NCBI GenBank assembly: GCA_027451885.1
Contig: DAIDHX010000135.1
Span: forward strand, 1 to 34,219
DNA from: Planctomycetales bacterium
GTDB lineage: Bacteria; Planctomycetota; Planctomycetia; Isosphaerales; Isosphaeraceae
DNA: 34,219 bases
Reading direction: 5' to 3'
Shown here: positions 9,958 to 28,724 of the stretch, piece after piece
Position numbering within the stretch: the first letter of the stretch is position 1
Layout of the letters: each line of letters starts with the position of its first letter
Notes under the pieces: generated by a model
Told to the model about the DNA's origin: nothing
The model's input: only the letters and a program-made list of their open reading frames with translations
The model's database searches: none
Translations under genes and position numbers: made by a program

Positions 9958-11580
9958 TCAGCGCACAGCGCCTTCGACGCGTGTGCTCGGTTTCTCGTCA
10001 TCCTTGATGTTTGTGATCATCGCCTCGGTCGTGAGCATGAGCGCCGAGATCGAGGCCGCGTTCTGGAGCGCGGAGCGCGTGACCTTGGTCGGGTCCACGA
10101 TGCCGGCCTTGAACATGTCCGTGAACTCGCCGGTGTTGGCGTCAAAGCCGATGGCGCCGGTCTTTTCCTTGAGGTCGTCGGCGATCACGCCGCCGTCGTG
10201 GCCGGAGTTGCTGGCGATGTGGCGGATCGGCTCCTCGAGCGCCCGCAGGATGATCGCCGCGCCGATGCGTTCATCGCCGGCGAGACCATCATGGACGGCC
10301 TGCACCGCCGGAATCACGCGGACCAGGGCAGCCCCGCCGCCAGGCACGATGCCTTCCTCGGCCGCCGCCCGGGTCGCGTGCAGCGCGTCCTCGATGCGGG
10401 CCTTGGTCTGCTTCATGTCGGCCTCGGTGGGCGCGCCCACCCGAATCAGCGCCACGCCGCCCGAGAGCTTGGCCAGCCGCTCCTGGAACTTCTCCTTGTC
10501 GTACTCGCTTTCGGTCTCCTCGATCTGGCGCCGGAGCTGGTCGATCCGCCGCTGAATCTCGGCCTTCTTGCCCGCACCCTGAATGATCGTGGTGCTGTCC
10601 TTGTTCACCTTGATCTGCTTGGCCTTGCCAAGCTGGGCAAGCTGGAGATTCTCAAGCTTCAGCCCCAGGTCCTCGCTGATCACCGTGCCGCCGGTGAGCA
10701 CCGCCATGTCGCCCAGCATCGCCTTGCGCCGATCGCCAAAGCCAGGCGCCTTCACCGCGCAAATGTTGAGCACGCCCCGAAGCTTGTTCACCACAAGCGT
10801 GGCAAGCGCCTCCCCCTCCACATCCTCGGCAATGATCAGAAGCGGCTTGCCCGACTGGGCAACCTTCTCGAGCAGCGGGATCATCTCCCGCAGATTGCCG
10901 ATCTTCTTCTCATGGAGCAGGATGAGCGCGTCCTCAAAGACGGTCTCCATGCTCGTGGGGTTGGTCACGAAGTAGGGGCTCAAATAGCCCTTGTCGAACT
11001 GCATGCCCTCGACAAACTCGAGCGTGGTCGAGGCCGTCTTGCCCTCCTCGACGGTGATCACGCCGTCGCGGCCCACGCGCTCGACCGCATCGGCGAGCAT
11101 CGAGCCGATCGCCGGGTCGTTGTTGGCCGAGATCGAGCCGACCTGAGCGATCTCTTCCTTCTTGGAGACAGGCTTCGAGATGCTGGAAACCAGCTCGTTC
11201 ACCGCCGCCTCGACCGCCTTCACGATGCCGCGGCGGATCGCCGTCGGATTCGCGCCCGCGGTGATGTTCTTGAGCCCCTCGCGATAAATCGCGCGGGCCA
11301 GGATGGTCGCGGTGGTGGTGCCGTCGCCAGCGACGTCGGACGTCTTCGACGCCACCACGTTCACCAGCTTCGCACCCATGTTCTCGAACGGGTCCGAAAG
11401 CTCGATCTCCTTCGACACCGTCACGCCGTCCTTGGTCACCGTCGGACCGCCGAACGACTTGCTCAAAATCACATTGCGGCCGGTGGGCCCGAGGGTCGTG
11501 CCGACAGCCTTGGCAAGGATGTCGACCCCCTCGAGCATCTTCCGACGGGCCGCGTCGGAAAACATGATCTGTTTCGCCAC
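9958..11580 (-). CDS. groEL: Chaperonin GroEL, copy 1 (no Gly-Gly-Met tail)
   Basis: A 540-residue 60-kDa chaperonin. It has the standard equatorial, intermediate and apical domains with conserved TLGPTGRNV, the ATPase motif [23 protein letters not shown], and PGGGAAL near the C-terminal ATP-binding part. It starts with [20 protein letters not shown] behind a GAGGAG ribosome binding site. The C-terminus ends [14 protein letters not shown] and entirely lacks the Gly-Gly-Met repeat that fills the cavity floor in typical GroEL. It lies directly downstream of groES, the canonical groESL order. Compared with copy 2 it differs along its whole length, so the two are not a recent duplication. It is probably a specialised or stress-specific paralogue (inference). 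Confidence 0.96.
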
Positions 11581-11664: not shown

Positions 11665-11964
11665 TTACTTCACGACCTTCGCCAGGATGTCCGACTCGCG
11701 GAGGATCTTGATCTCCTCGCCGTCGACCTTGATCTCGGTGCCCGAGTACTTGCCAAAGAGCACCTCATCTCCCTCGGCAACGCCGATGGGAGCACGCTCG
11801 CCCGAATCCAGGAGCTTGCCCGGACCAACCGAAAGCACACGCCCACGCTGCGGCTTCTCCTTCGCCGTGTCGGGAAGCACAATGCCCCCCGCCGTCTTCT
11901 CCTCGGCCTCGATCTGCTGAATCACCACCCGGTCTTCCAACGGACGAATCTTGAGCTTCGCCAT
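11665..11964 (-). CDS. groES: Co-chaperonin GroES
   Basis: A 99-residue co-chaperonin that caps the GroEL ring. It shows [37 protein letters not shown] in part as the family opening and mobile loop (hydrophobic IVL tip), then GRVLSVGPG, the [20 protein letters not shown] roof strand region and the ESDILAKV end. The start at 11964 was chosen over an in-frame upstream ATG at 11991 because GAAGGGAACG lies just before it and homology begins there. It is the only groES in the window, placed between two groEL genes, so it may serve both. Confidence 0.95.
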
Positions 11965-12043
11965 CGCGATCGTTCCCTTCTTCTCAATCAAGTCTCGGTG
12001 AATCTGTGTCTCGCACGACTGCCGATCCCATAAGGACCGGCGA

Positions 12044-13738
<1,695 letters not shown>

Positions 13739-13953
13739 GATGGATCTCCTTGTCGATTGCCAGTAACCCACCCCGAATCCCACGGCATGCATCCACCGAT
13801 CACGCCAAATTGCAGTCCGTGGAATTGCTTGCCCCATCCCAGATGCAACTGTGATACCGATCTTAAAAAATGTAGTAAGTGCCTTTTAGAAAAAGCTTTG
13901 TGCATTTCCGCCCGAAACCATGACGGCACCACGGCTGTCGTTTTGGCAGTTTC

Positions 13954-14058: not shown

Positions 14059-14100
14059 GCATCCCCCCTGCACCCGAATTCGTGCATGCGGAGACACACC

Positions 14101-15474
14101 ATGCTTGCAAGGCTCTACGGCAGCAACTTCCGCTCGCTGAAGGCCGACTTCGAACTCTCGATGGTCGCCGCCGACTTGAAGCGGGAGGACGACGCCCATC
14201 GGGGCGTGATCGAGTTCCCGATCGCGGGGTTGCCCCGCCCGCTTCGACTGCTGCGCGTGCTCGCCCTTTTCGGCGCCAATGCCTCGGGAAAGTCAAACGT
14301 GTTGCACGCGGCAGAGGCCCTGAACTGGCTGGTGACGGAGTCGAGCGCAACCGCTCGCCCCGATCGCGAGATCCCCGTATATCGGCCGTTCGCCCTGGAC
14401 CCGAATACTCGACAACGGCCAGTCAAGCTGGGATGCGATGTCACCTTCAAGGACTCGCTGCTGCGATACGAGGTCGAATTCAGCGCAACCGCCGTCGAGC
14501 GCGAATCGCTTGGCCGGCTCAGCGGCGATCACGAGGAACGGCTGATCGACCGCCATCCTGACGGCCGCATTCGTGGCCATCTCATCGAAAAGAGCAAATC
14601 CAACCGGCTTTACGTCAAGGAGATGCAACCGAACGTCTCCGTGCTTTCCAAGCTCGCCCAGCACGGGCCGCAACGTGGCAAGGACTCCGCGCGACCCTAC
14701 CACCAGGCAATTCAGGCAGCCACCCGGTTCGCTGACTTCTCCAGTCGGTCGTTCCAGGATGCGGGCAAAAGCCGGTTCGCCAACGATGCGGTATACCGGG
14801 ACTGGATCATGAAGCATCTCGTGATCGCGGCGGATTTTGGGATTCAAGATGTTGATATCAAGATGACTTCCGCTAAAACATTTCACGATCTCTTGTACAA
14901 GCAGTTCCGTGGCGACCCCTTGAACAGGAAGTTCGACCGATGCATCGCGCCTGGCCTTTCAGAGAGTGAGACGGCGGCGATCCTGTTCGAGGCTGGTGAC
15001 AGCGAGGTCGGCGGCGGAATCGATGTCGCATTCGTGCACGAGGGCCTTGAGGACCAACCCTTCGACTTCTCCGCGGAGTCCGCCGGCACACAGAAGATCC
15101 TCTCGCTCGCGGAGCACTGGTGGACCCTCGCTCACGAGCCCGTTTCTCTCTTCGCGGACGAGCTCGGCGCCAGCCTGCACCCCCGCCTGCTGGAACGGCT
15201 GGTTCACGCCGTGAATCGAGCTCCCCTTGCCGATGAGCAATCGCAGCTCATCTTCGCAACGCACGACACGGGGCTGCTCGAAGGCCACGACGGCGCACCC
15301 CCCGCGCTCAGGCGAGACCAGGTCTACTTCACAAGGAAGGATCGAAATGGCGCTTCGGAGCTCTACTCCCTCGCCGAGTTCAAGGAAGAGGCTAGACCGG
15401 TCCACAATATTCGCAAACGCTACCTCTCCGGACTCTACGGCGCGATTCCGCTCGTGGGGGAGTTCGATCGATGA
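14101..15474 (+). CDS. AAA/ABC-type ATPase of an AbiL/RloA-like defence cassette
   Basis: A 457-residue ATPase of the OLD/AAA_15 group. It opens with MLARLYGSNFRSLK, typical of this group. Walker A is GANASGKS (58-65). An ABC-like signature ESAGTQK lies at 326-332, Walker B is VSLFADELGASLHP with Asp353-Glu354, and the switch His is in FATHDTGL (His388). A large central helical insertion (about 130-310) probably forms the coiled-coil or dimer part. The start at 14101 has GGAG 7 nt upstream; an ATG 15 nt earlier is less well placed. It overlaps the RloB gene by 4 nt. In AbiL, RloAB and the related PARIS and OLD systems such an ATPase senses phage infection and controls a TOPRIM nuclease; here that role is inferred from the pair. 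Some stretches (around 14840-14900) are less GC-rich than the neighbours, hinting at transfer. Confidence 0.88.
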   Translation: MLARLYGSNFRSLKADFELSMVAADLKREDDAHRGVIEFPIAGLPRPLRLLRVLALFGANASGKSNVLHAAEALNWLVTESSATARPDREIPVYRPFALDPNTRQRPVKLGCDVTFKDSLLRYEVEFSATAVERESLGRLSGDHEERLIDRHPDGRIRGHLIEKSKSNRLYVKEMQPNVSVLSKLAQHGPQRGKDSARPYHQAIQAATRFADFSSRSFQDAGKSRFANDAVYRDWIMKHLVIAADFGIQDVDIKMTSAKTFHDLLYKQFRGDPLNRKFDRCIAPGLSESETAAILFEAGDSEVGGGIDVAFVHEGLEDQPFDFSAESAGTQKILSLAEHWWTLAHEPVSLFADELGASLHPRLLERLVHAVNRAPLADEQSQLIFATHDTGLLEGHDGAPPALRRDQVYFTRKDRNGASELYSLAEFKEEARPVHNIRKRYLSGLYGAIPLVGEFDR

Positions 15475-16172
15475 CCCAGGGTAGGAAGCCGAGAAGTCCG
15501 AAAAAGCCCCTCTCGAAAAAGGTCCAGAACCTGATTGCGGAACTTACCCGCAAGAGCGGGACACGCGATTTACCGAAGCGATTCCTGATCGTCTGCGAGG
15601 ACGGCAAGTCATCGGTGAATTACTTCAATGCGCTCAGGAAACATCTCGGGCTTTCCGCGGCCTCGGTCATGGTCGCACCCAGCGACAACGGCAGAACACA
15701 GCCGATCCAGGTCGTGGACCGTGCGATCCAGATACAAAAGCAGGCCAGCAGGGAGCCTGACCCATCCCGTCACTTTGCTCATGCCTGGTGCGTGATCGAC
15801 GGCGACTTCGGTCACGACAAAATCCAGCGAGCGCGAGGACGAGCGAACGCGAATGCAATCGAGCTAGCCATCTCGACCCCCTGCTTCGAGTACTGGGTCG
15901 TGCTCCATTTCGAGGAGTTCTCGAGAACGAACTTGAATTGCGATGGCATGGAGCAGAGGGTCAAGAAACGCCTGCCCAGCTACGAGAAAGGAAAAACCGA
16001 CTTCCGGAAGGTCGTCCCGATGTATGGAGACGCGTGCCGCAGGGCCAAACAGCAGCGGCAGCATCAAGCGAATGTTCTGCCCGAGCGGCAGGACCCATGC
16101 AGCGAGAGCAATCGCCTGATCGATGCACTCGGGGTGCCGGGCGGCAGTGCCGGTGAGCGGCGACCCCTTTGA
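15471..16172 (+). CDS. rloB: RloB-domain protein (TOPRIM-like putative nuclease, AbiLii-like)
   Basis: A 233-residue RloB-family protein. The N-terminal basic stretch (KPRSPKKPLSKK) is followed by FLIVCEDGKSSVNYFNAL, with Glu43 as the likely TOPRIM glutamate, then WCVIDGDFGH with Asp110 and Asp112 as the acidic metal-binding pair. The family hallmark STPCFEYWVVLHFEEF lies at about 135-150, and SNRLIDALG closes the domain. These residues fit a metal-dependent TOPRIM nuclease, as proposed for AbiLii. The start ATG overlaps the ATPase stop (ATGA), so the two proteins are probably made in fixed ratio and form a complex. The end, PGGSAGERRPL, is a short extension of unknown meaning. Target (DNA, tRNA or other) cannot be told from sequence. 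Confidence 0.88.
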   Translation: MTQGRKPRSPKKPLSKKVQNLIAELTRKSGTRDLPKRFLIVCEDGKSSVNYFNALRKHLGLSAASVMVAPSDNGRTQPIQVVDRAIQIQKQASREPDPSRHFAHAWCVIDGDFGHDKIQRARGRANANAIELAISTPCFEYWVVLHFEEFSRTNLNCDGMEQRVKKRLPSYEKGKTDFRKVVPMYGDACRRAKQQRQHQANVLPERQDPCSESNRLIDALGVPGGSAGERRPL

Positions 16173-19770: not shown

Positions 19771-20772
19771 ATGATGGCCTCGGACAATTCTCTCATCCTG
19801 CGGGATGATCGTGCCAAAAAGAACGATCCCTACGGCGAGCTCAAGGTCTTCGCCGGCCGGTCCGGAACTCAGCTTGGCGAGGCGATTTGCAAATATCTCG
19901 AGCTCTCGCTGGCGAAGAGCGAGGCGGTCGTCTTCAGCGAGGGCAATGTCTTCGTGCGCGTGCTTGAGAACGTGCGCGGGCGTGACGTTTTCATCGTGCA
20001 GGGGACCGATCACCCGGTCAACGACAACTTCATCGAGCTGCTCTTCTGGATCGACGCCTTCAAGCGCGCCAGCGCCACCCAGGTGACGGCGGTCATTCCC
20101 TATTTTTCGTACGCCAAGGGAGACAAGAAAGACGAGCCCCGGGTCTCGATCCGGGCACGCGTTTGCGCCGACTGCATCGAGGCCGCGGGCGCGGACCGCG
20201 TGCTCACCATGGATCTGCACAGCCCACAGATTCAGGGGTTTTTCAAGGTCCCCGTCGACCACCTGTATGCGATGCCGGTTCTCACGGACTACTTCCGCTC
20301 CAAGCGTATTCCCGACCTTGTCGTCGCCGCCCCCGACGTCGGTTTTGGCAAGCAGGCGTACAAGTTTGGCGAGGTCATGGACACCCCTGTCGTCTTTGGC
20401 AACAAGACCCGCCGCGGCCATGACGAACGCGCGGAAATGCTTGATATCGTCGGCAATGTGCGGGGCAAGAACGTCCTGATCGTCGACGACTTCACAATCA
20501 GCGGCGGCACCTTGATCGAAATGGCCGTGGGCTGCAAACAGCGGGGGGCGAAGGACATCTACGCCTGCGTAACCCACGGCGTGCTCGCCAAGGGCACGGC
20601 CGCCAGGCTCCGCTCCAGCCCAATCAAGGAGCTCGTGCTCACCGACACCATCACGCACCGTTATGAGCCCCTGCCGGAGAACTGCACCGTGGTCTCGGTC
20701 GCGCGGTTGTTTTCCGAGGCGATCCTCTCCATTCACCGCCGCGAGAGCGTGAGCCGGCTCTTCGATTACTGA
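19771..20772 (+). CDS. prs: Ribose-phosphate pyrophosphokinase (PRPP synthetase)
   Basis: A 333-residue PRPP synthetase, making 5-phosphoribosyl 1-pyrophosphate from ribose 5-phosphate and ATP for nucleotide, His and Trp synthesis. Visible parts are FAGRSGTQLGEAI, ENVRGRDVFIVQ, the ATP loop region VIPYFSYAKGDKKDEPR, TMDLHSPQIQGFF, and the PRPP loop VLIVDDFTISGGTLIE. The flexible loop (YFSYAKGDKKDEP) and PRPP loop (DDFTISGGT rather than DDMIDTAGT) depart from the common bacterial class I form, so regulation by phosphate or ADP may differ. GGAG is 4 nt before the first ATG and 7 nt before the next ATG (19774), so the start may be one codon later. Confidence 0.92.
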   Translation: MMASDNSLILRDDRAKKNDPYGELKVFAGRSGTQLGEAICKYLELSLAKSEAVVFSEGNVFVRVLENVRGRDVFIVQGTDHPVNDNFIELLFWIDAFKRASATQVTAVIPYFSYAKGDKKDEPRVSIRARVCADCIEAAGADRVLTMDLHSPQIQGFFKVPVDHLYAMPVLTDYFRSKRIPDLVVAAPDVGFGKQAYKFGEVMDTPVVFGNKTRRGHDERAEMLDIVGNVRGKNVLIVDDFTISGGTLIEMAVGCKQRGAKDIYACVTHGVLAKGTAARLRSSPIKELVLTDTITHRYEPLPENCTVVSVARLFSEAILSIHRRESVSRLFDY

Positions 20773-20898: not shown

Positions 20899-22329
20899 AT
20901 GGATCACACGCGCGCCCGCACCGTCGGTGAGCTCAAGGCCAGCGGCTACAAATGGGAATCGGTCAAGGATGAGCTCAGGCGAAACCTGATCGCCCGGCTC
21001 GAGGCCGGCGCCCCGCTCTTCACCGACATTCTGGGTTATGAAGAAACGGTGATTCCCCAGGTTCAAAACGCGATCCTGTCCCGGCACGACATTCTGTTTC
21101 TGGGATTGCGCGGCCAGGCCAAGACGCGCATGCTGCGCAAGTTAACCGACTTGCTGGACGAGACCATTCCGATCATCGCTGGCTCTGAAATCCACGATCA
21201 CCCGTATCACCCCATCTCGCGCCAGGCGCGGGACCTGGTAGACCAGAAAGGGGACGACGCGCCCATCGAGTGGGTGGGGCGTGCCGAGCGTTATCGGGAG
21301 AAGCTGGCCACGCCGGACGTCACCATCGCCGACCTGATCGGCGAGGTCGACATGATCAAGCATGCCGAGGGCCGCTATCTTTCGAGCGAGTTCACCATGC
21401 ATTTTGGGCTGATCCCGCGTACAAATCGCGGGATCTTCTGCATCAACGAGCTCCCCGACCTTGCGCCCAAGATCCAGGTCGGGCTGTTCAATGTGCTTGA
21501 GGAGCGGGACGTTCAGATTCGCGGCTATCCTGTGCGTCTGGAGCTTGATCTTTGCCTGGTGTTTTCGGCCAATCCCGAGGATTACACGAATCGCGGCCGC
21601 ATTGTGACCCCGCTCAAGGACCGGATCGGCTCGGTGATTCGCACGCACTATCCGCTCACGCGTGAGATCGGCATGGCGGTGAATGATCAGAACGCCTGGC
21701 TGGATCGCGGCGGCACGCGCAAGCAGGCGATCCCGGTCTACATCAAGGAGATCGTCGAGGAGGTTGCGCGGCTGGCCCGTTCGTCGCCGCATGTGAACCA
21801 GCAGTCTGGCGTATCGGCCCGGATGTCGATCGCCAACCTTGAGAACGTGGTCTCGAGCGCGGAGCGCAGGGCGATTCTCAATGCGGAGCCGGCGGTGGTG
21901 CCGCGCGTCTCGGACCTGGGTGCGCTGGCGTCGAGCTCGCGTGGCAAGGTCGAGCTCTTGATGTCGGAAGAGGAAGGCCATGAAGACAAGCTGATCGGCC
22001 GTCTGGTTGGCGAGGCGGTGAAGAATCTCGTCACGTCCCATGTGGACTTGCGCGAGCTTCGGCCGCTCGTTGATTATTTCGAGTCCGGGCAGACGCTCGA
22101 GCTGGGGGACGGCATGGCGGCGAGGACGGTGCTCGAGCGGATTGCCAGGCTGCCGTTGCTCAGGAAGCGGGCGGAGGAGCTTGCGGGGAAGAGTTTCGCG
22201 CAGGGGGTCGATCCCGATGCCCGAGACGCCGCGGTGGCAAGCGCAGCCGAGTTTCTTCTCGAAGGACTGCACGTGCACAACAAGCTCAACAAGAACGTCA
22301 AGCAGGGCGGCGTCTCGTACCGGCGTTGA
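20899..22329 (+). CDS. MoxR/Mg-chelatase-like AAA+ ATPase
   Basis: A 476-residue AAA+ protein of the MoxR/ChlI clade, which acts as a chaperone or remodeller together with VWA partners. Walker A is GLRGQAKT (69-76), the usual last Gly replaced by Ala. Walker B is GIFCINEL, with Asn183-Glu184 instead of Asp-Glu. FSANPEDYTNRGRI is the sensor-1 region with the ChlI-type loop, and LKDRIGSVIRTHYP an arginine-rich helix. The C-terminal helical domain ends NKLNKNVKQGGVSYRR. AGGGGA lies 11 nt upstream of the ATG. The next gene, a VWA protein, starts 24 nt later, the typical MoxR-VWA pairing. No chlorophyll or cobalamin genes are near, so metal chelation is unlikely. The target is unknown. Confidence 0.85.
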   Translation: MDHTRARTVGELKASGYKWESVKDELRRNLIARLEAGAPLFTDILGYEETVIPQVQNAILSRHDILFLGLRGQAKTRMLRKLTDLLDETIPIIAGSEIHDHPYHPISRQARDLVDQKGDDAPIEWVGRAERYREKLATPDVTIADLIGEVDMIKHAEGRYLSSEFTMHFGLIPRTNRGIFCINELPDLAPKIQVGLFNVLEERDVQIRGYPVRLELDLCLVFSANPEDYTNRGRIVTPLKDRIGSVIRTHYPLTREIGMAVNDQNAWLDRGGTRKQAIPVYIKEIVEEVARLARSSPHVNQQSGVSARMSIANLENVVSSAERRAILNAEPAVVPRVSDLGALASSSRGKVELLMSEEEGHEDKLIGRLVGEAVKNLVTSHVDLRELRPLVDYFESGQTLELGDGMAARTVLERIARLPLLRKRAEELAGKSFAQGVDPDARDAAVASAAEFLLEGLHVHNKLNKNVKQGGVSYRR

Positions 22330-22353
22330 TTCAAACTCCCTCGGAGCGGCTCC

Positions 22354-23490
22354 ATGGCGCTTTTTGAATACGCGAAGTGGGACGGCTCGCAGCAGTTCCT
22401 GCCTCAGTCCGCCGACAAGGTTTTCGAGCAGATCTCGGAATACCTGATGCAGTTCGGCGACCGGGTGCTCGACAGCCTGGACGAGGTTGAGGACGAATCG
22501 CCCGAGATCGTCAAGCTGATCCAGCAAGAGGGGTTGATCGAGAAGGACTCCGACGGGCGCTGGGTTGTCACGCCCAGGGGCGCGAGGCGGATTCAGGATC
22601 GCGCGCTTGAGGATCTCTTTCAATCGTTCCGCCGCGATGCGCTCGGCAAGCACGACACGGCCGACAAGGGCGCGGGCACGATCGCGCTTGAGGACGTGCG
22701 GCCCTACGTCTATGGCGACTCGCTCGCGCATCTCAACCTGCACGAGACGATCAAGAACGCCTATCTCCGCCAGGGGGGCGGCGTGCCGATCAGGCTGTCC
22801 TCCGAGGATTACATGGTTCACGAGACCGAATATCAGTCGCGCTGCGCCACCGTGGTGCTGATCGATATGAGCGGCTCCATGAATCGCTACGGCAAGTATT
22901 ACACCACCAAGAAGGTCGCCCTTGCGCTCCAGGGGATGGTCCGCAGCCGCTATCCCCAGGATTCGCTTCAAATGGTGGGCTTTTACAGCCTGGCCAGTGT
23001 GATGACCGAGCGTGAGCTCCTGAACAGCGCCCCCAAGCCGGTCAGCATGTTCGACAGCCGCATCCACCTGCGGCTCGATCTCGACAACCTGCCGCGAAAC
23101 ACGCCCCAGCACTTCACGAACATTCACGCCGGGCTTCGCCTGGCTCGGAGCTTGCTCGGCCGCCAGCCCACGGCGAACAAGCAAATCATCGTGATCACCG
23201 ACGGCGAGCCGACCGCGCATCTCGAGGGCCGCGAGCTCTTGCTCGTGTATCCCCCGGCCGAGAAGACCGCCAATCACACCCTGGCCGAGGCACGCAAGTG
23301 CGCGGCGGCGGGGATTCGCATCTCGAGCTTCGCACTCATCGAGGATTACTTTTATCTGGGTCTGGTGAACTTCGTCGAGGAAATGGCGCGGGTCTCGCGC
23401 GGTGTGGCGGCGTATTGCTCCACGGACGAGATCGGGAACCTGGTGTTCCAGAGCTTCGTCGGCGGCCGGCACACCCGGCGGCAGGCCTAA
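22354..23490 (+). CDS. VWA-domain protein, partner of the MoxR-like ATPase
   Basis: A 378-residue cytoplasmic protein with no signal peptide. The N-terminal half is charged and helical (FEQISEYLMQFGDRVLDSLDEVEDES). The C-terminal von Willebrand A domain has a full MIDAS metal site: DMSGS (Asp171, Ser173, Ser175), Thr255 in HFTNIHAG and Asp283 in ITDGEPT. A CGGAG ribosome binding site is just before the start. Such proteins work with MoxR-type ATPases (compare ChlI/ChlD, RavA/ViaA, CoxD/CoxE) to insert metals or remodel complexes. This pair is not clearly any of these, so the substrate remains open. Confidence 0.85.
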   Translation: MALFEYAKWDGSQQFLPQSADKVFEQISEYLMQFGDRVLDSLDEVEDESPEIVKLIQQEGLIEKDSDGRWVVTPRGARRIQDRALEDLFQSFRRDALGKHDTADKGAGTIALEDVRPYVYGDSLAHLNLHETIKNAYLRQGGGVPIRLSSEDYMVHETEYQSRCATVVLIDMSGSMNRYGKYYTTKKVALALQGMVRSRYPQDSLQMVGFYSLASVMTERELLNSAPKPVSMFDSRIHLRLDLDNLPRNTPQHFTNIHAGLRLARSLLGRQPTANKQIIVITDGEPTAHLEGRELLLVYPPAEKTANHTLAEARKCAAAGIRISSFALIEDYFYLGLVNFVEEMARVSRGVAAYCSTDEIGNLVFQSFVGGRHTRRQA

Positions 23491-23676
23491 GGCAACCCTG
23501 GCTCGATTCCACCCTGCTCGCGATCCCAGGGCCACGGCGCGCGAACCGCGTCGTGACCCCAGCCCTGCGCTCCGTGGTTTCGCGGCACCACATCCTTGGT
23601 CCACGCGACAGGGTATTCTATCCTGGATAGGAACAGGCTGGGTTGACGAGCCCTGGCCTCGAGCGGGAGAGCCACC

Positions 23677-25452
23677 ATGAGCCATCGCCTCGCCTGGCTG
23701 CGCGGCCGGGAGCGGAACGACCATTGCACACGACTCGGCCGCGCCAGGCGGCCAGGCGTCGATCCGCTCGAGGATCGCCGGCTGCTCTCGATTACATTCC
23801 AGTTCAACTACTCTTACGACGCAGCAGGCTATTTCGCCACGCACCCGCAATCGGAAGCGCTCTTGCAGGCCGCGGGCGAACAACTGGGCGCCCGGCTCGA
23901 AAACAGCCTCGCCGCGATCACGCCCGACCCGGCGGCGGGTAATACCTGGTCGGCAACCTTCAGCAATCCCAGCAATCCCAGCACGCAGGTCACGCTCAAC
24001 AACCTGAGCATCGCCGCCAATACCTTGCTCGTGTTTGTGGGAACCTCGGTGGGAAGCTACGGCGGCCTGGGCGGGCCTGGAGGATGGGGCTCGAGCGGCA
24101 GCACCGACTGGAATAACCTGGTCGCCTCGCGGGGGCAAACCCAGGCGCTCAGCAGCCCGCCGCACGGATTTGGACCCTGGGGCGGGATGGTGACCTTCAA
24201 CGTCTCGAACGGCCAGGCGCCCGATTTCGCGGTCATGCTCCACGAGCTGGTGCACGTGCTCGGCGTCGGCACCGCGGAGTCGTGGTTTGCCGACGTCAAC
24301 ACCGCCACGAACCAGTTCATCGGCCCGAATGCGGAGGCGGCGTACGGCGGCCCCGTCCCGCTCGATACCGCCACGGGAGACGCTCACTGGGCCACGGGAA
24401 CCCAGTCTGGCGGCATCGCCGCGCTCATGACCGAGTACGCCGACATCCAGCAAGTCACACCGCTCGACTGGGCGGGGCTCGAGGATGTCGGCTGGCAACT
24501 GGCGAGCCCCGAGCTTGCCGTGAGCGTGTCCGCCCTGACGCCGGCCGGCGCGCCCCTCGGCAGCTTCACCTTCGGCCAGTCTGGCGTGCTGGTTGCCACG
24601 GGGGCGGTTGGATTCTCCGGCACCATCACCTTCATCTCGGGCTCGACGCTCCTGGGATCCTCGCCAGTCAGCAGCGCTGGGCGTGCGTCGATCAGCCTGG
24701 CTGCCGTGCCCGCCGGCGTGCAAACCATCGCCGCTGTCGAGGTCGCCACGAACGCCTCGGGCGCGAGCGATTCCGGCTGGTCGCTGCTCAATCTCACGGT
24801 GAATCCCGCTCAGCCTGTCCTCCATCTTGCCGATCCCGGCGGCCCCTACAACGGGATTCCTTACACCGCCAGCGCCACGATTACCGGTGTCGACGGCCAG
24901 GCGGGCTCGAGTCTCGAAGGAGTCGCCGTGCAGGTGAGCTACTTCGATCCAGCCACGGGCGCCAACCTGGTAAGCGCTCCCGTCGGCCCGGGCCACTATG
25001 GCGCGATCGCGTACTTCCCCGGCAGCGCTGATTATCTCACCGCAACAAAGCTTATTTACTTCAAAATAACAACAGGTAGTACTCCGCCGCCCACAAGGCA
25101 GGCCGCCGCCGCAATCCCCGATGCGCCGATCCCCCGCTTCCACGGCAGGCGGCTCAAGGCGATCGTGCTGCCGGTCCAGTTCCTCTCCGCGGCTGCCGGC
25201 CTGCCCGCGCCCGGCGGCATCGCGGTTTACGAGATCGTCACTCATCCCAAACGCCCCAGGCAGAAACCCCGCGTCAAAGTCCTGGACCGGGCCCCCATCG
25301 CGGGGGGCGTCGCCGCGCCCAGCTTCCCGCTGTTTCAGGTCGTCGGCAAGCCAATCACCGTGATCTACAGCGGAGACGCCCGCTACCTGCCGCTCACGCT
25401 CAGCCTGCCCGTGCTCGCACGCGCGCAGCTCCACGCCCTGGCGCGGCGATGA
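23677..25452 (+). CDS. Exported zinc metalloprotease-like protein with planctomycete N-terminal motif and Ig-like repeats
   Basis: A 591-residue protein. The Arg-rich N-terminus carries DPLEDRRLLS (about 28-37), a motif common at the start of large exported planctomycete proteins. A metalloprotease-like domain follows: HELVHVLGVGT (His189, Glu190, His193), a possible third zinc ligand His237 in AHWATG, and Met251 in IAALMTEY as a Met-turn. This layout resembles leishmanolysin-like (M8) metzincins, with the third ligand far from HExxH. From about 280 come beta-rich repeats with FTFGQSGVLVATGAV and FSGTITF, like bacterial Ig-like (Big_3-type) domains. The C-terminus is basic and Pro-rich. GGAGAG precedes the ATG. 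Catalytic activity is inferred only. Confidence 0.75.
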   Translation: MSHRLAWLRGRERNDHCTRLGRARRPGVDPLEDRRLLSITFQFNYSYDAAGYFATHPQSEALLQAAGEQLGARLENSLAAITPDPAAGNTWSATFSNPSNPSTQVTLNNLSIAANTLLVFVGTSVGSYGGLGGPGGWGSSGSTDWNNLVASRGQTQALSSPPHGFGPWGGMVTFNVSNGQAPDFAVMLHELVHVLGVGTAESWFADVNTATNQFIGPNAEAAYGGPVPLDTATGDAHWATGTQSGGIAALMTEYADIQQVTPLDWAGLEDVGWQLASPELAVSVSALTPAGAPLGSFTFGQSGVLVATGAVGFSGTITFISGSTLLGSSPVSSAGRASISLAAVPAGVQTIAAVEVATNASGASDSGWSLLNLTVNPAQPVLHLADPGGPYNGIPYTASATITGVDGQAGSSLEGVAVQVSYFDPATGANLVSAPVGPGHYGAIAYFPGSADYLTATKLIYFKITTGSTPPPTRQAAAAIPDAPIPRFHGRRLKAIVLPVQFLSAAAGLPAPGGIAVYEIVTHPKRPRQKPRVKVLDRAPIAGGVAAPSFPLFQVVGKPITVIYSGDARYLPLTLSLPVLARAQLHALARR

Positions 25453-25495
25453 CGCGTGGCGCAGGCCAATCACTCACAGACATGCTCACGTTCAT

Positions 25496-26839
25496 CTATG
25501 CCAATTGCTTCTCGAATGTGTACGGCAGCACCTTGACGCGGCGATCCTTGAGAAACGCCAGCGCCTGCTTGAACGCCGCCTCGTCGCGGGCGCGATCAAC
25601 CGAATCGATCGGCTCGAGCCCCTCTGCCGCGCCCGGGTCGCGGATCTCACGCTCGTCGAGCAGAAACACATGATCCCCGGCCCCGAGCTCGAGCGAATCG
25701 AGCAGCGCCGCCGTCTGTTCGCGATGCGGTAGGGCGCGTGCGTCGCCCCCTGCTCCGGCGAGCACAAGCAGGCTGATCGCCACCCCCGCGGCCTTGATCT
25801 CGGATACGACCTGGGCGAGATCGCTGGCCAGCCACGACTTGCCGTAAAGCGCGCGGGTTGCCGGATCGCCGGATTCGACCCCCAGGCTCATGCGCTTGAG
25901 CCCCAGGGTTGCGAACCGGGCCCAGTCCGCGCGTGAGGGCCGGGGCTCGGCATAATCATCCAGGAAGCCGTGGATGCCTTCGAGCGCAGGCTCGAGCCCG
26001 GGTTCGAGGGGATCAGGCCTGGCTGCGTCGCGCGGCTGCGTGCCGCTGGCACGGATCGGAAAGACCCTGGCCGCGGCCGCGAGCCGATCCGCGATGATCT
26101 CCACGGATTGCTTGTAGAAGTCGCTACCGGCCACGTACAGCGTTTTTGCCTGCCGCAGGCGCAGACCCCAGAGCTGCTTCACGCCCAGGGCGATGTGCTC
26201 GAATTCCTCGGCGTCTGCGCTCCAGGCGGGCGCCTGGCGCGCGTGCGCGAACGCAAGGCCGGACGCCGCTCCCCGCGTCGCCGGCACGATCACCGCTCCC
26301 GAGCATTCCGGCGGCAAGAACTCGTCGTGCAGGCAGGCCGAGACGAAACGCTCGCGCTGGGCGAACCACGCGGCGGAATCCCAGCGCGTGATGCGATCGA
26401 GCAATTCCAGGAGCGCTTCGCCGGAAAGGGCGCGGCCGCGCGTTCCAGGCGGGGGCACGAACTCGTATTCCGCCCGCATGACTCCCCGCGCGAGCTCGGA
26501 TGCCGTCGCACGCGCAAGCGCGTCAAGCTCAACCGCCGCGGCGTACTCAAGACGCCTGCGCTTGAGCACCATGCTCCCCTGGTCTCGCACCCGGTCAAGC
26601 GCGTGCACCGAGCCGTCCAGACCTTTCAGGAAGTGACGCTCGCCGATGTACGCGCGCTGCCACCGCCCCTCGAGGTCGAAGTGATAAATCGGCGCATCGC
26701 CGAAGTAAAGCGAAAACCCGCCCGGTTTGACCGCGGCCAGGATCAAATCCCCCTCGGGTGCACGGAGCCCGACTCGTAATGGATACAGGGCCCCCTGCTC
26801 GAGCAAGCACGCGGCCTCGGTGCGATGCGTTTCGCTCAT
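25496..26839 (-). CDS. Radical-SAM-like protein lacking the CX3CX2C cluster motif
   Basis: A 447-residue protein. The C-terminal half reads like the second half of a B12-type/oxygen-independent radical SAM barrel: GLKRMSLGVESGDPATRALYGKSW, then a VVSEIKAAGVAISLLVLAGAGG segment. The N-terminal half has no CX3CX2C; its few cysteines are isolated (for example SACLHDEF, PPECSG), so no [4Fe-4S]-SAM site is possible as written. The ATG at 26839 has AAAGGTGG about 9 nt upstream; an upstream extension to 26944 is open but unlikely. It may be a degenerate, non-catalytic radical SAM homologue used for binding. No neighbour suggests a pathway. Confidence 0.65.
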   Translation of the reverse strand: MSETHRTEAACLLEQGALYPLRVGLRAPEGDLILAAVKPGGFSLYFGDAPIYHFDLEGRWQRAYIGERHFLKGLDGSVHALDRVRDQGSMVLKRRRLEYAAAVELDALARATASELARGVMRAEYEFVPPPGTRGRALSGEALLELLDRITRWDSAAWFAQRERFVSACLHDEFLPPECSGAVIVPATRGAASGLAFAHARQAPAWSADAEEFEHIALGVKQLWGLRLRQAKTLYVAGSDFYKQSVEIIADRLAAAARVFPIRASGTQPRDAARPDPLEPGLEPALEGIHGFLDDYAEPRPSRADWARFATLGLKRMSLGVESGDPATRALYGKSWLASDLAQVVSEIKAAGVAISLLVLAGAGGDARALPHREQTAALLDSLELGAGDHVFLLDEREIRDPGAAEGLEPIDSVDRARDEAAFKQALAFLKDRRVKVLPYTFEKQLA

Positions 26840-26935
26840 CGGTGCCGACCACCTTTTTCCCTTGCAAACCAGGGCGGGACGCACAGATTCACGCGGTCCC
26901 CGTTCGGATCCTGGAAAGCGCCCTCGCGTAAAATC

Positions 26936-26952
26936 AATATACATTCTATATT
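26936..26952. promoter_or_regulatory. AT-rich palindrome between divergent genes
   Basis: AATATA (26936-26941) and TATATT (26947-26952) are perfect inverted repeats around CATTC, in the 172-bp gap between the divergent radical-SAM-like and GT39 genes. Either arm could supply a -10 on one strand (TATATT), so it may be a shared divergent promoter core or operator. No -35 was seen at 17 bp on either strand. Confidence 0.3.
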
Positions 26953-27011
26953 ACCCAACCTTCCCCAGAATGACTTGATTCGGCGACCGCGTGCGCAAGG
27001 AGGCGGACGAG

Positions 27012-28724
27012 GTGGACGAGAAACGGGCCCAGGCTGCCGAACCAGTTTCGCGCGGGCGTTTCGCCGGCTGGATCGGGCTCTGCGTGCTATTGCTGGTGTC
27101 GCTCATTCTGAACCTGGCTGGGAACGATCGAACCGGCCTGTGGGATCGCGACGAGCCGCGTTACGTGGGCGCAGTGCACGAGATGCGAGCGCGCGGCGAC
27201 TGGATCACGCCCTATTTCAACGGCGAGCCGCGTTATCATAAGCCGATCCTGATCTACTGGCTGATGGGGGCCTCGACGGCGATTCTGGGGGAAACGCCCT
27301 TCGCCTCGCGTCTGATCTCCGCGCTCGCGGGCGTGGGGGTTGTCGGGCTGACGTGGCGGCTCGGCCGGCGGATGATTGGTCCTCACGCGGGGCTTCTGGC
27401 CGCACTCTTCACGGCGACCACCCCGCTCGTCGTCGCACAGGCGAAGCTGGCCACAACCGATGCCCTGCTCGTGCTCGAGGTCCTGGCGGCGACATCGTGC
27501 CTCTGGGAGCTCTCGAAGGCCCCCTCGCGCGGGCTCGCCCTGGCCTTCTGGGCGCTTGTTGCGCTCGCGATCCTGACCAAGGGGCCGGTCGGCCCCGCGC
27601 TCATCGCGGCCACGGCGGTCGCGGCCCGTTTGCTGGGATGGCGGGGCAACCTGGCCGCGCGGCTCGAATGGCGCAGGGGGCTGATTGTGCTCGCGGCGAT
27701 CGCCGCGCCCTGGCTGGTGCTGGTCTCGATCGTCTCGCTGGGCGCGTTCCCGCGCTTCGCGCTCGGGCACCAGCTCTGGGGGCACATGACCAGCGAGATG
27801 GAACGCCACGGCGGCTTCCCGGGTTATTACCTGCTGGGCGCGCTTGTGCTCTTTGGGCCCTGGTCCGCGCTTGTGCCGGCGGCGGTGGTCGCCGCGTGGC
27901 CCTTGCGCATGCTGCATGGCGGGCTCCCCTTCCTCATCGGCTGGGTGCTCGGCCCGCTGGTCTTGCTCGAACTCTTCGGTACCAAGCTGATCCACTATTA
28001 CCTCCCATCTTACCCGGCGTGGTCGATCCTGGCGGCGTGGCTGGTGCTCAGGCTCGAGCGCCCCGCCTGCTCGATCCGCTCCCTGCGCTTCGGCCGGCTC
28101 GCGCTTGGGATCTGGCTGGGCACGGGCGCGGGGGCTGGGATTGCTCTCGTTGCGGGGACATGGTTTGTGCCGGCCGCTGCGCGGTTGCCCATGCTTTGTT
28201 GCGCGATCCTGGTTGCGGCGGGACTCTGCGCGGGCGCGCGGCTCTTCGAGCGCGGGATTCCCAGGCGCGCTGTGGGCGTCGTCACCGCCGCGTGGGGACT
28301 CGTGCTCCTGATCGCAGGCGCCTGGTTGATCCCCGCGCTTGAGCCCCTGCGCACCTCGCGCGAAGTCGGCGAACGGCTGCGGCGGCTCGCCGCCGAAACC
28401 GGCTACAGCCCGGTGCTGCTCGACTACCAACCATCAGGTGTCGTTTATGCATATGGCGCACCCATCGCCGTCGCGCACGACAGGGCGGAGTTCTTCCAGC
28501 ACCTCGAGCACGCGCCCGCCGTGCTCACGGCGGTCGACCCAGAATCGATCCCACGCCTCGAAAAGAAGTATGACCTCGTCATGAAGCCGCTCGAACGCGT
28601 CGTGGGGCCGCCGGCGGGCTTGTTCGCGCGCGAGACGCTCGACCTGGTGGTCGTTGCGCGGGCGCATCCAGGCGGCGAGGCGTTCGAGCAGGCCGAATCA
28701 TCGCATGATCGCGTGATCAAATAA
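27012..28724 (+). CDS. GT39-family (ArnT/PMT-like) integral membrane glycosyltransferase
   Basis: A 570-residue integral membrane protein. After a short basic cytoplasmic tail comes a first transmembrane helix (CVLLLVSLILNLAG) and then the GT39/ArnT signature region LWDRDEPRYVGAVHEM and GDWITPYFNGEPRYHKPIL, with the catalytic Asp-Glu pair in the first periplasmic loop. About ten further hydrophobic helices follow and a soluble C-terminal part. Such enzymes transfer a sugar from an isoprenoid-phosphate donor to lipid A or protein. GTG 27012 is favoured because AAGGAGG (26997-27003) lies 8 nt upstream; the GTG at 26991 would put that site inside the gene. It ends 8 bp inside the convergent GT4 gene. 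Confidence 0.82.
   Translation: MDEKRAQAAEPVSRGRFAGWIGLCVLLLVSLILNLAGNDRTGLWDRDEPRYVGAVHEMRARGDWITPYFNGEPRYHKPILIYWLMGASTAILGETPFASRLISALAGVGVVGLTWRLGRRMIGPHAGLLAALFTATTPLVVAQAKLATTDALLVLEVLAATSCLWELSKAPSRGLALAFWALVALAILTKGPVGPALIAATAVAARLLGWRGNLAARLEWRRGLIVLAAIAAPWLVLVSIVSLGAFPRFALGHQLWGHMTSEMERHGGFPGYYLLGALVLFGPWSALVPAAVVAAWPLRMLHGGLPFLIGWVLGPLVLLELFGTKLIHYYLPSYPAWSILAAWLVLRLERPACSIRSLRFGRLALGIWLGTGAGAGIALVAGTWFVPAAARLPMLCCAILVAAGLCAGARLFERGIPRRAVGVVTAAWGLVLLIAGAWLIPALEPLRTSREVGERLRRLAAETGYSPVLLDYQPSGVVYAYGAPIAVAHDRAEFFQHLEHAPAVLTAVDPESIPRLEKKYDLVMKPLERVVGPPAGLFARETLDLVVVARAHPGGEAFEQAESSHDRVIK

Follow-up and report, generated by a model that had tools for sequence, protein, structure and literature searches.

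A conserved cysteine-less radical-SAM-like protein of Isosphaeraceae is a probable pseudoenzyme built around an N-terminal beta domain

Introduction

In the radical-SAM superfamily (PF04055), SAM is anchored through its methionyl part by the cluster iron. Pseudoenzymes have been amply documented among kinases and similar folds; within the accessible portions of the open-access literature, we found no described case of a radical-SAM pseudoenzyme family, in Isosphaeraceae or elsewhere. Here we analyze a gene from a 34,219-nucleotide stretch of Planctomycetales bacterium DNA (hereafter the window; contig DAIDHX010000135.1, Isosphaeraceae), whose product and Isosphaeraceae homologues (hereafter the family) resemble superfamily members in barrel fold, GVESG motif and glycine motif, but differ in lacking the cluster cysteines and the GGE-like and SPL sites.

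Three groups of proteins provide the closest comparisons. The best fold matches of the family barrel are MgmA, viperin and MiaB, which are active [4Fe-4S] enzymes; they share 13-14% identity with it, and we saw no homologous N-terminal domain in them. Direct homologues with the same layout are uncharacterized fused radical-SAM proteins from a record labeled Archangium and from Planctomycetota outside Isosphaeraceae (for example loci L029, L035 and L081), but these intact relatives carry a CX4CX2C motif, a poorly conserved N-terminal domain and other gene neighbors. Finally, standalone proteins of ~165 residues, encoded once per genome, contain a homologous N-terminal domain with the family residues S43, R62, R83 and R85, but have no barrel, begin with DREDL instead of TEAACLL, and also have other neighbors.

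We propose that the family is a lineage-wide radical-SAM pseudoenzyme in which the N-terminal domain is the working part and the barrel a scaffold or pocket, and which acts by binding or regulation. We assign this reading a probability of about 0.65.

Results

A radical-SAM barrel without cluster cysteines

The gene encodes 447 residues on the minus strand. An ATG is also present upstream at position 26944, but both the detectable homology and the starts of homologous proteins begin at 26839. The gene and its parts are as follows:

25496..26839, minus strand: gene for the cysteine-less radical-SAM-like protein (447-residue open reading frame; homologues share its start methionine)
26546..26794, minus strand: N-terminal beta domain, residues 16-98, eight strands (AF2 model, conservation, standalone homologues)
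26324..26545, minus strand: helical linker, residues 99-172 (AF2 model)
25499..26323, minus strand: radical-SAM-type barrel without a cluster, residues 173-447 (fold search, barrel tree)
26234..26272, minus strand: former cluster loop, residues 190-202, with the Cys columns at 191, 196 and 199 (alignment)

Its only cysteines, at positions 11, 169 and 179, form no CXnCXXC motif, in agreement with the original prediction of a radical-SAM-like protein without cluster cysteines at this position. That prediction had named CX3CX2C as the missing motif; the absence holds, but the motif of the nearest intact relatives is CX4CX2C (e.g. CSYGRCSFC). In profile searches, Pfam Radical_SAM (PF04055) covers only residues 301-354 and scores 13.5 bits, below its gathering cut-off of 29.5. 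Another family member (L058) reaches 26.1 bits, and the intact relatives exceed the cut-off. An NCBIfam scan of the 447-residue protein returned no match.

A ColabFold/AF2 model built from 23 aligned sequences has a mean pLDDT of 89.3 and a pTM of 0.86. Its best Foldseek matches in the PDB are nearly all radical-SAM proteins, with one pyruvate carboxylase among the 50 listed. A second fold comparison aligned residues ~180-447 with MgmA (9ccb; Z 16.4, rmsd 2.8, 217 residues), MiaB (7mjx; Z 15.8) and viperin (5vsl; Z 15.7), and as far as titles tell, the matches listed are radical-SAM proteins or their complexes. These matches and Z scores identify the modeled residues ~180-447 as a radical-SAM barrel, of the partial or full TIM type that defines the fold, and rule out a different fold for this region. 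In the same model, the N-terminal ~172 residues form a separate domain, mostly beta plus helices, whose beta portion carries the family motif SLYFGDAPIYHFDLEGRW.RA...G.H.LK.LDG....DR.R. Thus, the barrel proposed earlier for the C-terminal half and the different domain suggested for the N-terminal half are both borne out, the latter also by the occurrence of the domain on its own in other families of the class. A model of an intact Archangium protein was weak in its N-domain (pLDDT about 50-65) and was left out of the analysis.

Cysteine loss is shared across the family

An initial search recovered the protein from 25/40 genomes of relatives, in three cases through a weak N-terminal match only. 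With a family profile, the gene was detected in 42 of 45 Isosphaeraceae genomes and in all 26 high-quality ones (at least 90% complete, at most 5% contaminated). None of the 40 distinct Isosphaeraceae homologues examined has the cluster motif, or a cysteine at any cluster column. The reverse is true of the intact fused relatives, where all three cysteines are present in 14/14 proteins as CX4CX2C; in the alignment, family sequence of the 'VVLQATLGHAGGRAFG' type falls over 'VVVQ..TxGCSYGRCSFC'-type sequence of the relatives. Outside the family, a phylum sample yielded matches in 135/293 other genomes (136/294 counting the window's own). The 29 loci taken from those genomes (L029-L057) all keep CX4CX2C, and 13 of them have the N-domain-plus-barrel layout, as does the Archangium-labeled record, which lies outside the phylum and keeps the motif too.

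Three records titled as Candidatus Kuenenia stuttgartiensis MAG (L074, L078 and L079) carry an Isosphaeraceae-type gene; their titles look wrong.

Cysteine loss common to 40/40 members, together with conservation of other residues, identifies a conserved cysteine-less class rather than local decay, one of the two outcomes that the original prediction had left to an alignment of homologues; retention of the cysteines is confined to homologues beyond Isosphaeraceae. This class and the different N-terminal domain, which that prediction had offered as alternatives, hold together. Local decay or a frameshift is further ruled out in that all 40 sequences come from open frames. The family has thus lost, throughout, catalytic residues that are present in active-type homologues, whose activity we read from their motif.

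In a tree of the barrel from which the cluster loop was left out, one branch (SH-aLRT 99) sets all 36 cysteine-less rows apart; under midpoint rooting only, they lie next to the intact fused proteins L029, L034 and L032 and are nested within that group. These 36 rows, also used for the column counts below, leave out P_L022, whose barrel is eroded, and three fragments of at most 330 residues. We found no intact paralogue in the family genomes by scoring 12 first-look candidates per genome, a depth at which a miss is possible. In the class sample at this depth, every full-length hit for the intact profile was the cysteine-less gene, and the remainder were partial, generic radical-SAM matches; no full-length fused protein was found there outside Isosphaeraceae.

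One alternative is that a non-canonical cluster, with ligands from other residues or a partner protein, sustains radical chemistry. Accessible portions of the literature describe ThiC and Dph1-Dph2 as radical-SAM-type enzymes with unusual cysteine motifs, and column 191 of the family holds His in 16/40 and Asp in 9/40 sequences. We regard this alternative as highly improbable: 22 listed family members have between one and five cysteines in total and lack a three-cysteine motif, and the aromatic and other loop residues are gone as well. A metal ligand shifted to His or Asp at 191 is ruled out, as the position is not conserved.

The barrel has lost and gained conserved residues

Nineteen positions fixed in the intact relatives are lost in the family, and 18 of these lie in the barrel. 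They include the three cysteines, the aromatic residue preceding the third, the GGE-like site after strand beta2, which we take to be the SAM amino-group site, and two residues (S and P) of the SPL motif in beta6. At the GGE-like site, which the family lacks, G237 is present in 14/14 intact proteins and is Ala in 33/36 family rows, and the acid at 238 is lost in most rows, so that G237-[DSE]238-A239 becomes A-G-x. The SPL motif becomes LLD. Family members keep PP176-177, G320, the glycine motif at 362-365 (G362, G364), H372 and Y440. We counted 55 conserved positions gained in the family, 40 of them in residues 1-172 and 15 in the barrel; the latter include W336 (33/36), K436 and K444 in addition to two of the following residues:

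26120..26122, minus strand: D240, end of strand beta2, by the former GGE-like site (29/36 family rows; S, N or G in intact relatives)
25874..25876, minus strand: E322, the Glu of GVESG, kept in part (28/36 family rows, 14/14 intact)
25655..25657, minus strand: D395, end of strand beta6, replacing the P of SPL (D in 33 and E in 2 of 36 family rows; P in 12/14 intact)

Without the cysteines and the GGE-like and SPL sites, a standard [4Fe-4S]/SAM centre cannot be carried. The pattern of substitutions suggests that cluster and SAM anchor have both been lost and that the pocket has been reshaped; judged by the strand ends at which they lie, D240 and D395 would sit in the former pocket. The residue losses are directly visible in the alignment, and the family protein would accordingly lack radical chemistry.

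The residues that persist raise the possibility that the barrel, though cluster-free, still binds SAM, 5'-deoxyadenosine or some other nucleotide and serves as a metabolite sensor. G320, E322, the glycine motif and H372 are all compatible with this idea, and the closest solved folds bind SAM. However, the GGE-like and SPL sites have been replaced as described, and the methionyl part of SAM would have no anchor if the cluster iron is missing. We consider a sensor of this kind improbable.

Constraint is inverted between N-domain and barrel

We compared conservation of the two parts in the family and in the 14 intact proteins. Mean pairwise barrel identity is similar in the two groups (39.5% in the family, 38.4% in intact proteins), and mean pairwise N-domain identity is 59.4% versus 26.3%. 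N-domain identity exceeds barrel identity in 630/630 family pairs, which are non-independent here and in the RecA comparison below, versus 2/91 intact pairs. Within the beta domain (residues 16-98), 18 positions reach at least 95% conservation in the family versus three in the intact relatives, and the family's helical linker (99-172) adds seven.

To calibrate these values we used RecA, leaving out G075 (no usable RecA), G168 (no match) and G195 (weak match). At RecA identities of 0.75-0.85, family pairs show N-domain/barrel identities of 0.525/0.321 (n = 27) and 0.571/0.369 (n = 61), and intact relatives show about 0.40/0.56 (n = 4 only). The RecA-calibrated identities thus indicate a relaxed barrel and a tightened N-domain, with the intact side thinly sampled. 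By rough NG86 estimates, dN/dS stays below 1 in both parts: the N-domain spans 0.03-0.42 and is mostly lower than the barrel, which spans 0.17-0.53. High GC content makes dS unreliable in these genes, and the rows are non-independent as one gene appears under several locus identifiers. Retention in 42/45 genomes and these rough ratios point to purifying selection, as expected of a pseudoenzyme.

A faster barrel is also what would be expected of a dead remnant, a tolerated stabilizing tail heading for loss from a protein of which only the N-domain matters. At like RecA distance the family barrel does evolve faster than the intact one, by the few intact pairs available; in one genome (G021) the barrel is strongly eroded and the N-domain still recognizable; and standalone N-domains occur in other families of the class. 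Against this, frame and fold are kept across the family, barrel dN/dS stays within the range given above, and the barrel has 15 family-specific gains, D240, W336, D395, K436 and K444 among them. We therefore judge the remnant explanation unlikely, though deserving of more weight than the sensor, and favor a conserved pseudoenzyme whose barrel is still in use.

The N-domain also occurs without a barrel

An N-domain profile matched 77/148 genomes of the class, comprising 35/38 family genomes and 42/110 others. Among class genomes with an N-domain match, all 23 non-Isosphaeraceae loci that we read encode a standalone product of ~165 residues with the pattern DREDL...SxYFGxDPxYxFDxxGxLRRAFVDGxLYR...RxR. 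The shared residues S43, R62, R83 and R85 are each present in 23/23 of these proteins and mostly missing from the intact fused ones. Loci L216-L235 represent this unnamed family, which is found in many Planctomycetia. The N-domain corresponds to no Pfam family, its PDB sequence matches are at chance level (E 0.85 and 0.95), and a Pfam scan of the standalone member L221 returned no match.

In an N-domain tree, the standalone proteins form one clade (support 99) on long branches, and a topology holding family and standalone proteins together is not rejected (p-AU 0.72). Owing to its long branches, this tree is compatible with either the barrel or the cysteines having been lost first. A prs gene lies in the window at 19771-20772 and a prs-like gene in 4/23 standalone loci, a weak hint of orthology between the family gene and the standalone proteins.

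A divergent glycosyltransferase gene accompanies the family gene

Upstream of the family gene, the window contains:

26840..26990, no strand: intergenic region between two divergent genes (divergent start sites)
26991..28724, plus strand: PMT/ArnT-like membrane glycosyltransferase gene, the divergent neighbor (Pfam PMT_2, PMT)

This head-to-head arrangement is found in 37/38 family genomes with upstream sequence, a count that does not cover G020 (no upstream sequence), G340 (a fragment), G330 and G339, and in 22/22 named family loci with upstream sequence, a set that overlaps the 38 genomes. In most loci the divergent start sites are about 110-270 bp apart, with start codons uncertain. The head-to-head glycosyltransferase is kept even in loci L074 and L078-L080, whose fetched stretches gave no match to asd, truA or the GT4 gene, L078 and L079 being short contigs. 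The one exception among the 38 is G021, the genome with the eroded barrel, where the matching glycosyltransferase is about 0.4 Mb away. We saw no conserved neighbors of the intact relatives when inspecting 12 planctomycete loci and the Archangium locus by eye.

Genome G002, of the window's genus and 89% complete, keeps the asd-truA-GT4-glycosyltransferase block with no homologue of the family gene detected, which speaks against a strict link, as the glycosyltransferase can do without the gene. In this syntenic locus (L247; contig 455, 217-2001, minus strand), a WXXGXW-repeat protein occupies the gene's place. A functional tie between the family protein and the glycosyltransferase is plausible, given the gene order.

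Elsewhere in the window, an AAA_21 ATPase and RloB pair (14086-16172, plus strand) matches AbiLi and AbiLii in PADLOC and is likely an anti-phage defense pair; it lies near two chaperonin genes. These two different GroEL (Cpn60) genes (9958-11580 and 12044-13837, minus strand) flank a GroES-like reading frame, named by eye, at 11665-11991. A 1443-residue open frame at 21142-25473 (minus strand) runs antisense to real genes for an AAA ATPase and a vWA protein, and is probably a high-GC shadow frame and no gene.

Discussion

The loss shared by the family, its grouping in one clade, the inverted constraint and the standalone N-domains together support a conserved pseudoenzyme with the N-domain as its working part. 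In the history we envision, the ancestor would have fused an N-terminal beta domain to an active-type radical-SAM barrel. At the stem of Isosphaeraceae, or before it, the barrel would have lost its three cluster cysteines along with the GGE-like and SPL sites. The N-domain would then have taken over as working part, gaining about 30 fixed residues, and the barrel would have become a scaffold or ligand pocket with D240, W336 and D395 as new fixed residues. Many of the presumed N-domain gains are basic or His (R22, K38, H53, R62, H69, K72, R83, R85 and R94). Based on these conserved basic residues alone, the N-domain most likely binds an anionic ligand, which may be a nucleotide, nucleotide-sugar, lipid phosphate or RNA. 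The protein may act by binding or regulating, in step with the divergent PMT/ArnT-like glycosyltransferase.

A bolder version of this model is that the re-specialized pocket formed by D240, W336 and D395 serves an N-terminal module widespread in Planctomycetia, that both regulate envelope glycosylation through the PMT/ArnT-like enzyme, and that this is the first such lineage-wide radical-SAM pseudoenzyme to be described. We offer this version as speculation that is probably wrong in at least some part.

These proteins carry a warning for annotation, as 'radical SAM' labels derived from fold or partial profile matches may mislead on activity. Our analysis also brings to attention an unnamed N-domain present in many Planctomycetia genomes. 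Since this domain is found fused to an active-type barrel, fused to a cysteine-less one and on its own, its three contexts would amount to a natural experiment on the fate of a radical-SAM fold after its chemistry is lost.
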